DNA from: Phaeodactylum tricornutum CCAP 1055/1
Taxonomy: Eukaryota; Bacillariophyta; Bacillariophyceae; Surirellales; Neidiaceae
Direction: 5' to 3'
Assembly (NCBI RefSeq): GCF_000150955.2
Contig: NC_011685.1
Location: 62,001-126,000, forward strand
Length of the DNA: 64,000 nucleotides
Below the pieces are notes generated by a model, which ran no database searches, had not been told where the DNA came from, and saw only the letters and a program-made list of their open reading frames with translations. The position numbers and the translations under genes are program-made. Every line of letters starts with the position of its first letter. Position 1 is the first letter of the stretch. Positions 19,696 through 24,987 of this stretch are shown one piece after another.

Positions 19696-21894
19696 ATGTT
19701 GCGTTTGACTGGTGTACTGTTCATCGCCATTGGCGCCATAGAAAAAGCCAGTGTTGAGGGCTTCGGGGTGGTACCGAAACCCTTGACCAATTCTTGTCGT
19801 TTTTCTCATGGTAAAATTCAGTCAGTACACTTTGCAAAGTTCAAGCCTTCCGTTCCGGAATACCTGGTAAATGAAAACGATGAAGGGGAGAACAGTGGAG
19901 AAGATGGCTTAAGGAATGGCGCAGAGCTGGAACAGCATACTTCAAAAACATCCGAGCCCTTGATACTACCGGAACCTCCAGTTGTAGTCGCTGAGACGCC
20001 GCATTCCATGAAAGGCGATCTTAAGCCATCGACGCAATTCGCGGCACTGGCTCCGGGAACCGTCGTACACATTCAAGTTGGAGACGTTTCTCTCGCACGC
20101 AAGGCTTGGAAAAAACGACGTCGGTCGGGATCGCCCTTGCTCGTTCCTTGCAGCGTACTGAATGTTGATCGAGCCTCTACAATCCGCTGGAATCTCATTT
20201 ATATTCTAGAAAAGTTTGGACGGAGTAATGCCAGTGGTATTCGGATGACCTTGACAGAGCTTTCCTCACGACACCGGACGCATCTCAAATCGTCCCTCAG
20301 CTCGCACGCAGTGGCGCTGGGATACGAGACGCCCCGAGATATGGTGGAGGCTCTGTTCAATAAAAAAGCCCAAGACGAGTATGGTGTCAAACTCTTGGAA
20401 GCGAATCCAGAAGGCAAAAACACCAATGAAAACGGTCAACATCTAATTTTGCAGGCTCCGCTCTCAAGGTTCAAAGCTCAAAAACGTGCAAATGCGGCAC
20501 CCATTTTGCAATTTTTTTCGCAACAAGGTTCAACTGTTGACACGCTCCAACACACTGGTGTTGTACGAAATCGACAGAATGGTGTGGACATGGAAGCGGG
20601 CGATAATCTATATCGTCTCCAGCCACTTTCCGCTGCTCTTAGAGTCAGCCAAGAAGACGTGGAAGCCGGTACAATTCACAACGGCAGCTTCCACGCTGCC
20701 GTTGTCTTCGACTACGACATGCACGGTGATGGAGGTGAACCGCTTCTTACCTTGTCACTCAATCCAGCCCGCAATCAAGTCCGGGATCGTCTTAAAATTA
20801 GTGATCGCAAGTACACACCGTTGGCTAATCCAAGATACATACTCAAAGAACTTACTATGGGCGATGGACCAATGGAAGGAAAAGTGCTGCGCCTTATAAA
20901 AGGAGGCGCCTTGGTTGACTGCGGTGTCGGACGCAGAGTGAACAATGCTCCGTATGAAACAGTCCGTGTCTTGGGTTACTTGCGTTACAAGGATGCAACC
21001 CCGTCGAGTGTCGGTCAATCAAGAATATCTGGTACGGTAGAAGTTTACAATAGCAACCACGATGGTGATATGGACTCATTAGATAGTGCTGATGATTTGG
21101 ACGATGACGAATGGGAGGAGATTCTCTCTATAGACCACTTGGATGCCGATATTGACGAAGATCAAGAGGGCGATCAGGTCGATGATGTGACAATTCCTGA
21201 AGGCATTTTCGATGATGCAGAGGATGACGAGTTTACGAACTCTGAAGATATTACGCATATGTTTCACCAAAACGAGGACGGTTCACTAACGTATAGAGAT
21301 CCGGAATCGGGAGAGACTCAGATAATTGAATTGAGCAGCGGTAACGACGAGGTCGAGTACAACGATGAGACAAGTCAGGACGATGAGGAGGATCAACCCG
21401 TCGTTTTTGCAAAACCAGGGGCTAGGTCTTTTGGTGGACGAATGATACCGGAGGGACTTTGGAACACCACACCCTCCAGACTAAAGAAGTTGCACGTCGG
21501 CGATCGCATTGATCTATACGTAAAGTCTGTGTCCAAGCAGTCGAATCGTCTTATGCTGACTATGAACGCTGACATCAAAGGCAAGAATGCCAAGCAAGTG
21601 AAGCATGAGACGGAATTCAATAAAAAGCTCTCTCGTTTAATTTCGCAGATTGGAGGCCTGCAGAAAGTTGGAGCTTTATCAGGCAAAGAAATGGATGGTG
21701 TTGTCAGGGCGTTGTCCAAGACTGGTGACTGGATTTATGTGGAACCCAGTGACGACAGTTTGCCGGTGGGGGTTGCCTTTGCTCCAAAAGCGCTTCTTGC
21801 TGACATTGCTCAAGGAGACTCTGTAAGGATACAGGTTGAAGGAGTAGATGAGGATAGAGGTCAGCTTGCTATGCAAGTGTTACGGAAATTGTAG
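19696..21894 (+). CDS. Plastid-targeted S1 RNA-binding domain protein
   Basis: The 732-residue protein begins with a hydrophobic signal (LTGVLFIAIGAIEKA) followed by VEGFGVVPK, where Phe after small residues resembles the diatom plastid-import cleavage motif. An S1-like domain starts at about residue 390 (GKVLRLIKGGALVDCGVG). Its second half (LHVGDRIDLYVKSVSKQSNRLMLTM) comes only at about residue 600, after a 110-residue insertion packed with Asp and Glu. A further S1-like strand set closes the protein (GDSVRIQVEGVDEDRGQLAMQVL). Residues 100-380 form an unassigned domain. S1 modules bind single-stranded RNA, so a role in plastid RNA handling or translation is inferred. Confidence 0.72.
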   Translation: MLRLTGVLFIAIGAIEKASVEGFGVVPKPLTNSCRFSHGKIQSVHFAKFKPSVPEYLVNENDEGENSGEDGLRNGAELEQHTSKTSEPLILPEPPVVVAETPHSMKGDLKPSTQFAALAPGTVVHIQVGDVSLARKAWKKRRRSGSPLLVPCSVLNVDRASTIRWNLIYILEKFGRSNASGIRMTLTELSSRHRTHLKSSLSSHAVALGYETPRDMVEALFNKKAQDEYGVKLLEANPEGKNTNENGQHLILQAPLSRFKAQKRANAAPILQFFSQQGSTVDTLQHTGVVRNRQNGVDMEAGDNLYRLQPLSAALRVSQEDVEAGTIHNGSFHAAVVFDYDMHGDGGEPLLTLSLNPARNQVRDRLKISDRKYTPLANPRYILKELTMGDGPMEGKVLRLIKGGALVDCGVGRRVNNAPYETVRVLGYLRYKDATPSSVGQSRISGTVEVYNSNHDGDMDSLDSADDLDDDEWEEILSIDHLDADIDEDQEGDQVDDVTIPEGIFDDAEDDEFTNSEDITHMFHQNEDGSLTYRDPESGETQIIELSSGNDEVEYNDETSQDDEEDQPVVFAKPGARSFGGRMIPEGLWNTTPSRLKKLHVGDRIDLYVKSVSKQSNRLMLTMNADIKGKNAKQVKHETEFNKKLSRLISQIGGLQKVGALSGKEMDGVVRALSKTGDWIYVEPSDDSLPVGVAFAPKALLADIAQGDSVRIQVEGVDEDRGQLAMQVLRKL

Positions 21895-22322: not shown

Positions 22323-22904
22323 CTAGACTGGAACTGCAGTTTGATGCATTGCCACCAGCCCCTTCTGGCGACAGTAGCGATTTGTGTAAACCTGCGCTTG
22401 GCACCAATACAGCTCCCCGACGATGCGCTTCAAACGCCGTTCGACTGCTTCTTGCAGAGGAGTGTATTGTGAATCCCCTAGTCGATTTCGTCGCGTACAC
22501 TCACTGACAACAGTCTTGGCCCGTTGTCGTAGATTTTTGTCGTCTGCCCTTTCCAAACACTTGAAAAGGATCTTCACAAAGATGAGAAACTGCTCACGAT
22601 CCGAAAGCATCCTGCGAATCGGAGTGGATCGATACCCCTGGTACAAAGAAGGCGTCTGAGGAAGACTAGTTGAAGCAGTAGTTTGAGCCTGCATCAGTTC
22701 GTCGAGAACGGGTGGAATGCCAAGAAGTTGAATAGATGTCTCGTGTAAAACTGAGCACGAAAACTGGCCAAGTTGGTTGTCTTGTATATGTGCTTGCTCT
22801 TGATGTTGCGGCTGGTGTTGAATTTCCACCAGGGATGAGCTCTCGGCTTGGCGTAGTAAATTTGCTTGATGGATATCGTCAAAATCAACTCCATGCGAGT
22901 TCAT
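22323..22904 (-). CDS. Diatom-type conserved hypothetical protein, 193 residues
   Basis: The function is not known to me. The N-terminal 95 residues are Gln/His-rich and poorly structured. The C-terminal 90 residues form a compact helical domain: REQFLIFVKILFKCLERAD, LRQRAKTVVSECTRRNRLGD, TPLQEAVERRLKRIVGELYW and a final segment with YTNRY. I recall similar helical domains in many diatom proteins, without an assigned role. There is one exon and no targeting signal. Two TTGACTGTG sequences, variants of the window's recurrent motif, lie on the opposite strands just upstream (near 22975 and 23011). Confidence 0.65.
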   Translation of the reverse strand: MNSHGVDFDDIHQANLLRQAESSSLVEIQHQPQHQEQAHIQDNQLGQFSCSVLHETSIQLLGIPPVLDELMQAQTTASTSLPQTPSLYQGYRSTPIRRMLSDREQFLIFVKILFKCLERADDKNLRQRAKTVVSECTRRNRLGDSQYTPLQEAVERRLKRIVGELYWCQAQVYTNRYCRQKGLVAMHQTAVPV

Positions 22905-24265
22905 GATTTGTGAGAGAATAAGACAACGGACTACCCAGGTCAGGCTTCTCGAGAATGCGAATGTATGTTCAGGTTCACAGTCAACCTTGTTCGGATTGGT
23001 CCGACAAGCATTGACTGTGATGAGACCTTGAAATTCGCTTCACAACCCATCCCATCAAGGTTTCTGGCTGCCAAGATTGGTGTATGTTCAAGCAAAGTTC
23101 GCATTTGTTCCCAACGAATCGAAATTTGGAAATGCCATGAGTAAAATAAAATGTCGTAGAAAATATACTTAACAAAATATAGATGATGTCACTGAGATTT
23201 TTCTGACGCATATATGAATATATCATTTGATTATTGCTTCCGACATATTCATTTTATTTAAATATGGTCACATGAATTCAGAAATCGCATTGTGACATAG
23301 CTTACGATCGAGCAGTAGCAAACGCGGGCTATGACCTTTCGACAATGGAAAGGAAACATAAAAAACGAGCTCCGGAAAGTACTAACAGCAATTGAAACAG
23401 TATTGTAAATAGACTGCCTGCGATGTATGTGCTATTTTCTCAAGCTATGTATATCGTGAAAAAGAACGGGATTCACTGTCAACCGATCCATCAAATTACC
23501 GCATTCGTAATGGTGCAGATACGATTATTTTATGGGATTATAATTGCACTTTAATTTGATCAAATACTTTGTCTACATCTCGGGAACGTAGCCAATCTCT
23601 GCCTCAGGAGTGCGTTGATGCTCCTCGAGCATTGTAGAGGCATGTGATACACAGTGCGAGTCAGACAATCTATACTATTCTCCAGAAAACTGGTTGCAAG
23701 ACTATTCGCTTTTTGTCCAAAGCTTCCAGTTTGCTACGTATGTTACGTATGTCGTTTATGTAAGTCATCAATCTGAACATTAAAATAAATAACGCATTGA
23801 GGCCTGAACCTCCGCAAGTTTGTCATCAACAAGGTATTTAAAGTCCCTTACATCAGCTTGGTACTATGGGTGAAACTGCCTTTCATCGGTATTAACCGGT
23901 CGCCCCCAAGTCGAAATTTTGGACTTACAAAAAGCAAACCAAGTACTCTGTATTTCATCACACAGCAACAAAAGTAGCGAATGTATGTGTGTGCGTGTGC
24001 ATCACGGCGTAGTCATTCTTTAACGTGTATGTCCATTACAGCATACTTTTCTAATATATATGTGCAAAGAGCTACGGCAAGGTGTACCATCCAAAATCAA
24101 CAGGCGGACCTTGCTCGAATTGTCAAACCAAGTCGTAAGCTTACGCATCCGTCTTGATCGTCATGCAGCGAGACAAGGACTCCATCAGTATTTTTCTTCG
24201 GTTCAACATGGAAATTCGGCTCCCGTTTGCTGACAGTGTTCACAGTCTCGGAACCTCGTTGTGCT
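22905..24265. other. 1.36-kb gene-poor stretch upstream of the 193-residue protein and 3' of SelT
   Basis: No gene is supportable here. The stretch is A/T-rich relative to the neighbouring genes. It holds a TTCACTGTCA at 23472-23481, and at its right end the 3' untranslated region of selenoprotein T on the minus strand, where a SECIS element must lie if the UGA is decoded as selenocysteine. Confidence 0.5.
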
Positions 24266-24987
24266 CTAGTCTTGGGCAGTTTGCAAGCCTGCCTGGACCA
24301 AAGAAGAAATCAGGTCGTCAGCGGTCGGAAAAGCTCCCTTCGAAAGCTTACTGAAGATCTCTTTGTCATTTAGATAAACTTCAAAAGCTCCCGTTTGGGT
24401 ATATCGTCCAATCCACTGCGGCAGAATCAGAAACAAGAAAATGCCAATCGGCATCGCATTCTGGTTGATGGTATGATAGACACTAGGCAGTTGATTTTGA
24501 GGATAGCCCAGGAACCGAAAGATTTTTTCTCCACCCGCGACGATCCAGAAAATACCCATGAGCTGTATGACGGACATGAGGTTGGCCGCTAGTTCGATTG
24601 TCGCTGGTGGGGGGTAGTTGGCCCCCGTAATGTGCCCCCGTAATTCGGGAAACTGGTCTTCGAGGAACTTTTGCACATTCAAAAAGTTCCTCTTCATACC
24701 TCACCCGTTGCAGAACAGAATCTTTACGTGCTGCGCGGCGTCTTCCATGTTCTTGATACGAGGAGAATGCGATTTTCGCCACTGCTGTGAGAGAATGTTT
24801 GGGATAACCCGGAGCAAACGAATGGCTTTTGCGTCTCTTGCGCCAAGAAAACGAATCCATCCTAGCTTACCTCTTTCACGACGTTCCCTGTCACCGAGAC
24901 CATCAAGCATGTACAAAAGATTGCCATCAAGAGCACAAGGCTCTTGCATCCTGTGAACTTATCCATCGCGTTAACCGTCATGGTCAT
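24266..24987 (-). CDS. Selenoprotein T (thioredoxin-like, in-frame UGA as selenocysteine), two exons
   Basis: Exons (minus) 24987-24871 and 24784-24266 flank an 86-nt intron (GTAAGC...CTCACAG) and give 211 residues including the UGA. The frame reads KILFCNG, UGA, GMKRNF; the UGA at 24703-24701 is the fourth position of a CxxU redox motif, as in SelT. Downstream segments match the family: ANYPPP, a long hydrophobic stretch after it, then TGAFEVYLNDKEIFSKLSKGAFP and a final DDLISSL helix. Exon 1 carries a signal peptide (SLVLLMAIFCTCLMVSV), consistent with SelT being an ER-associated oxidoreductase. The start could also be 24981 or 24966. A gene finder that treats UGA as stop would split this gene. 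It shares a divergent promoter with the DUF1499 gene. Confidence 0.9.

Follow-up and report, generated by a model that had tools for sequence, protein, structure and literature searches.

A selenoprotein T gene of Phaeodactylum tricornutum with an in-frame UGA, a 3′ SECIS-like element and a UGA-adjacent hairpin

The selenoprotein T locus and its in-frame TGA

The DNA analysed here, a stretch of 64,000 nt referred to as the window, covers positions 62001-126000 of contig C17 in the genome of the diatom Phaeodactylum tricornutum (27.45 Mb, 88 contigs). On its minus strand lies a frame resembling selenoprotein T (SelT), open except for a single TGA (24703-24701) and ending with TAG at 24268-24266; in the minus-strand translation, the residues flanking the TGA are KILFCNG on one side and GMKRNFLNVQKFLEDQFPEL on the other. 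An earlier interpretation made from the letters alone (the sequence-only reading) had described this frame as crossing one TGA with SelT-like sequence on both sides, and had placed the TGA at the U of a CNGU motif; the motif is plainly seen in the sequence, and family scores rise on read-through. The predicted gene consists of two exons, both on the minus strand. Exon 1 (24871-24987), recognized from its open frame and hydropathy, would start with the ATG at 24987 and end at a predicted splice site, and is followed by a putative 86-nt phase 0 intron (24785-24870, minus strand, GTAAGC...ACAG), for which an alternative acceptor AG 3 nt further on is possible. Exon 2 (24266-24784) carries the CxxU domain, a hydrophobic insert and the C-terminal part. 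Conceptual splicing of the two exons gives a protein of 211 amino acids with U at position 67 (TGA at 24701-24703), in agreement with the earlier estimate of about 211 residues once the intron 24870-24785 is removed. Hydropathy peaks of this predicted protein fall at residues 16-34, 104-122 and 149-167, the first of which, within the proposed exon 1, is hydrophobic and signal-peptide-like. A single-sequence AlphaFold2 model of the protein has a mean pLDDT of 48.5, a quality too low for fold searching.

Homology extends across the TGA. The Pfam profile Rdx (PF10262, cut-off 22.6 bits) scores 57.5 bits (E 1.6e-15) on the read-through frame, compared to 37.5 bits from the next ATG, its match being split across residues 19-160 of exon 2, and the NCBIfam profile CXXU_selWTH (TIGR02174, cut-off 34.2 bits) scores 72.8 bits (E 2.1e-20) against 57.2 bits, beginning at model position 1 with read-through and at position 12 without it. 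Moreover, a search of the whole genome with the Rdx profile returns this locus with "1 TGA" inside. Among PDB entries, a Cys of C17orf37 (2ljk) aligns to the U of SelT (E 4.3e-7 overall, with 8.7 bits for the motif stretch alone), as does a Cys of SelW (2npb) in a weak match (E 0.63). A search of prokaryote genomes found no SelT-related loci, and the single viral match (L037) was rejected as short and apparently spurious.

As the sequence-only reading had expected of automated models, mechanical ORF calling stops at the TGA or begins at the next ATG, and this output matches the alternative in which the UGA genuinely terminates translation, or in which the ATG at 24697 is the start of a protein of 143 residues without CxxU, leaving the upstream part as a relic or leader. 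We consider this very unlikely, since the stretch ahead of the TGA is family sequence and lifts both the Rdx and the CXXU_selWTH scores, the TGA coincides exactly with the U of CxxU, and Sec decoding is present in the genome. Still less credible is the removal of the TGA by splicing, which the earlier interpretation had named as a refutation and for which a donor-like GTGAGG overlapping the TGA and 13 frame-keeping GT-AG pairs (40-300 nt) might be invoked, but all 13 of these candidate introns would delete 20 to 100 residues each, and the residues directly after the TGA match the family. Where standard annotation pipelines would end the gene model at the TGA, the SelT assignment mends it.

Selenocysteine machinery and other selenoprotein genes

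Judged by its gene content, the organism decodes UGA as Sec. Two tRNA-Sec genes, both with a TCA anticodon, were detected with 78.7 and 66.5 bits. These two genes (L006:1500-1586, minus strand, and L007:1501-1589, plus strand) are clearly different from each other, and by eye the differences in the anticodon and T stems are paired (compensatory). Four tRNA-Sec genes have been reported in the diatom F. cylindrus, in a paper whose main text does not name Phaeodactylum (PMC5330540). An intact SepSecS gene was found; about 5 kb from it lies a second, broken-looking SepSecS-like fragment (G000:C5:914004-914586, minus strand), one part of which contains an internal TGA. A single SelD (L023) has an active-site Cys and is apparently fused to an NADH-dehydrogenase-like domain, a type of fusion that has already been described (PMC4561486).

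Sec-position TGAs also occur in other families. They were seen in two of the three genome matches to GPx, and in two of three to the SelM type, the latter two being 98% identical copies on different contigs (L012 on C88 and L013 on C8). TrxR ends with the C-terminal GC-TGA-G. By eye, three of the seven matches to AhpC-TSA_2 are SelU-like, with G-TGA-xxCRE just upstream of the matched stretch (L024:1423, plus; L025:1302, plus; L027:1930, minus); L025 and L027 are arranged tail to tail on C4. For AhpC-TSA, a TGA was found in two of 19 matches, one being GPx2 again and the other containing a TAA as well, while none of the 11 MsrA matches and none of the 43 thioredoxin (PF00085) matches in the genome contained a TGA.

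Homology on both sides of the TGA, its position at the redox U of the CxxU motif, and the Sec machinery together with the other Sec genes make selenocysteine the best reading of the SelT TGA, as the earlier interpretation had proposed. We hold with strong confidence that the UGA at codon 67 specifies Sec, insertion itself being deduced, and the locus taken as a whole is very probably a Sec-containing diatom SelT gene. In the proposed scheme, the eukaryotic Sec machinery would decode this UGA to produce a thioredoxin-like protein of 211 residues, probably of the ER type, whose redox motif is CNGU. Both the SelT protein and the decoding of its UGA are of an already known kind, and there is nothing unusual in the protein.

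A SECIS-like element in the 3′ region

The sequence-only reading had named the lack of a SECIS within about 1 kb of the 3′ UTR as a refutation, and a SECIS-like stem-loop does lie close behind the SelT stop, although its spacing is not the classical one. It occupies 24109-24178 on the minus strand, with the AUGA part of the core starting at 24164, 104 nt after the start of the stop codon, and the UGAC part at 24125. Helix I is CCUUG-U-CUCG/CGAGCAAGG, helix II has nine pairs with one A-A mismatch, and the apical loop carries AA. Its core is about 80 nt further 3′ than the GTGA candidate near 24203-24243 that the earlier interpretation had described as poorly paired; on re-examination, the helix of that candidate (GTGA near 24243) indeed pairs badly, and it was discarded.

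A first, narrow scan did not recover 24178-24109, and the geometry was widened after this candidate and the GPx 3′ regions had been seen. Under the resulting tight geometry, itself widened post hoc, the element is the best of five matches on both strands of the window, and when the 1003 nt beginning at the stop were shuffled 3000 times, its score was never reached. Within 411,088 letters comprising the window and loci of the same genome (both strands; L002, L003, L013 and L037 left out), it ranks fourth of 73 matches. Six of the 73 lie at or below -25 kcal/mol, and at least two of these six (L018 and the second match in L024) are taken to be chance. On that count, a chance match this strong in 1 kb would have a probability somewhere below 1%. 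A looser scanner was rejected as a test: 12 of 400 shuffles reached the SelT score under it, and seven other sites of the window scored higher. The plain folding energy of the element does not stand out, being matched by 11 of 200 shuffles.

Established descriptions of SECIS do not capture it. A published filter requires AA or CC at 10-13 nt from the core (PMC2375036), and the element fails this rule with its AA at 18 nt; nor did the classical filter return any candidate in 1025 nt at the SelT 3′ region. Across the window the filter gives 124 candidates, of which 12 reach -20 or lower, and it performs poorly on the other Sec genes of this genome, with a strong candidate near the stop of SelU1 and none for SelU2. 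The Rfam model SECIS_1 (RF00031) has no match at E <= 10 in 22900-24987, and in the whole genome it gives two sub-threshold matches, neither at SelT. When nine Sec-gene 3′ regions were scanned with the tight geometry, those of TrxR, SelU2, SelU3 and the C8 copy of SelM had no match, and the candidates obtained in TrxR, SelU3 and C8 SelM by relaxing it were rejected, having no apical AA. A SelM SECIS that had at first been accepted is now in question: the C8 copy differs at three positions, one in the GA core, so that either the SECIS call is doubtful or the C8 copy is impaired. MAFFT gave no sound alignment of the candidates. We regard 24178-24109 as probably the SelT SECIS, short of proof because it departs from the published AA/CC spacing and escapes Rfam. 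If so, it would most likely recruit the Sec machinery to the SelT mRNA.

Hairpins adjacent to Sec codons and comparison with known systems

A second structure, absent from the sequence-only reading, lies within the SelT coding sequence. At 24662-24692 on the minus strand, a hairpin with a perfect 11-bp stem (GAGGAACUUUU/AAAAGUUCCUC) and a 9-nt loop begins 8 nt past the UGA. It is one of two perfect stems of at least 11 bp with a loop of 3-15 nt in the 64-kb window; the other (20678-20705) lies inside a 732-aa ORF (19696-21894). When the 51 nt that follow the UGA were recoded synonymously, one of 2000 versions was as stable (z -4.8); with uniform synonymous codon choice the count was again one of 2000, and with dinucleotide shuffles it was none of 200. 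With within-gene codon permutation, no other of the 156 windows of exon 2 is as extreme as the two that start from the UGA and from the codon after it (1/400 each). The folding of a longer window of 96 nt after the UGA is unremarkable (20 of 200).

The synonymous-recoding test was applied to seven coding Sec sites, with the near-identical C8 copy of SelM left out and TrxR tested apart. Out of 2000 recodings, those folding as well numbered 0 for SelU1, 2 for SelU2, 8 for SelU3 and 88 for GPx2, the last being marginal, while GPx1 (1566/2000) and SelM (1368/2000) have no UGA-adjacent hairpin by this test. In TrxR, where a single sense codon separates the UGA from the stop, the 82 nt after the UGA fold at -43.2 kcal/mol (z -6.1, none of 200 shuffles), and the main stem begins 5 nt past the UGA; the predicted hairpin (L034:1990-2071, plus strand) directly follows the penultimate UGA and the stop, and lacks a SECIS core. 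Strong UGA-adjacent hairpins are found in five of the eight distinct selenoprotein genes that were examined, namely SelT, the three SelU genes and TrxR. Counting the paralogous SelU genes once leaves three independent cases: SelT, SelU and TrxR.

It is quite possible that UGA is read by means of the 3′ SECIS alone, and that the adjacent stems are by-products of composition and protein constraint with no role of their own. GPx1 and SelM do without a hairpin and that of GPx2 is marginal; moreover, although 29 of 30 cells of the SelU stem are paired among the three paralogues, there is no double-sided compensatory change, and the test was devised after the SelT stem had been noticed, with the SelU genes being paralogous. 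Against such an origin, z <= -3.3 is reached at four of the seven coding Sec sites but at only five of 654 control windows from 21 long mechanical, uncurated ORFs of the window (none at z <= -4), and at none of 166 Cys-codon sites; the recoding and permutation counts for SelT, and the strength and position of the TrxR stem, argue in the same direction. On balance, we slightly favor the view that the SelT hairpin is a functional recoding element. Most likely it would serve as a redefinition element, hindering termination and increasing Sec insertion.

More tentatively, the hairpins of SelT, the three SelU genes and TrxR may represent a common second recoding signal in this diatom, possibly one that is ancient in eukaryotes. 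They are placed like animal selenocysteine redefinition elements (SREs) and bacterial SECIS, which suggests that UGA-adjacent signals could be an old eukaryotic feature rather than specific to animals. If this is true, hairpins may carry much of the load in genes with a weak or odd 3′ SECIS. SREs have been proposed to derive from bacterial SECIS (PMC4561486), and with such hairpins in five of eight Sec genes, the diatom offers a place to test this origin outside animals.

Compared with SelW and SelH, SelT is distinguished by an N-terminal signal-like stretch and a hydrophobic insert within the fold. The gene described here shares with known SelT the TGA at the U of CxxU, a family domain above cut-off, and both the N-terminal and the internal hydrophobic stretches, whereas its motif is CNGU and that of animals is CVSU. 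Among diatoms, T. pseudonana has a listed Sec-containing SelT (PMC2375036), and a survey covering four diatoms, the main text of which does not name Phaeodactylum, reported SELENOT with Sec in over half of 36 genomes (PMC7539508); the present gene may already be listed in the supplements of that survey. In our literature search, in which subscription journals were little covered, no title or abstract could be recognized as that of a study on this gene or on hairpins next to the Sec UGAs of diatoms. The SelT candidate 3′ of the gene has in common with eukaryotic SECIS the AUGA/UGAC core, helices I and II and the apical AA, and differs in the distance from core to AA (18 nt against 10-13 nt) and in the silence of Rfam SECIS_1. 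As for the hairpin, SRE-type structures have been found in animal SELENON and SELENOT among others, and SELENON mutations show that the SRE promotes Sec insertion (PMC8704476). In these animal genes, as here, a stem-loop of the coding sequence lies a few nucleotides 3′ of the Sec UGA, but the host is now a diatom and the likeness is one of position. By this analogy, we propose that the UGA-adjacent hairpins of the diatom may work like SREs.
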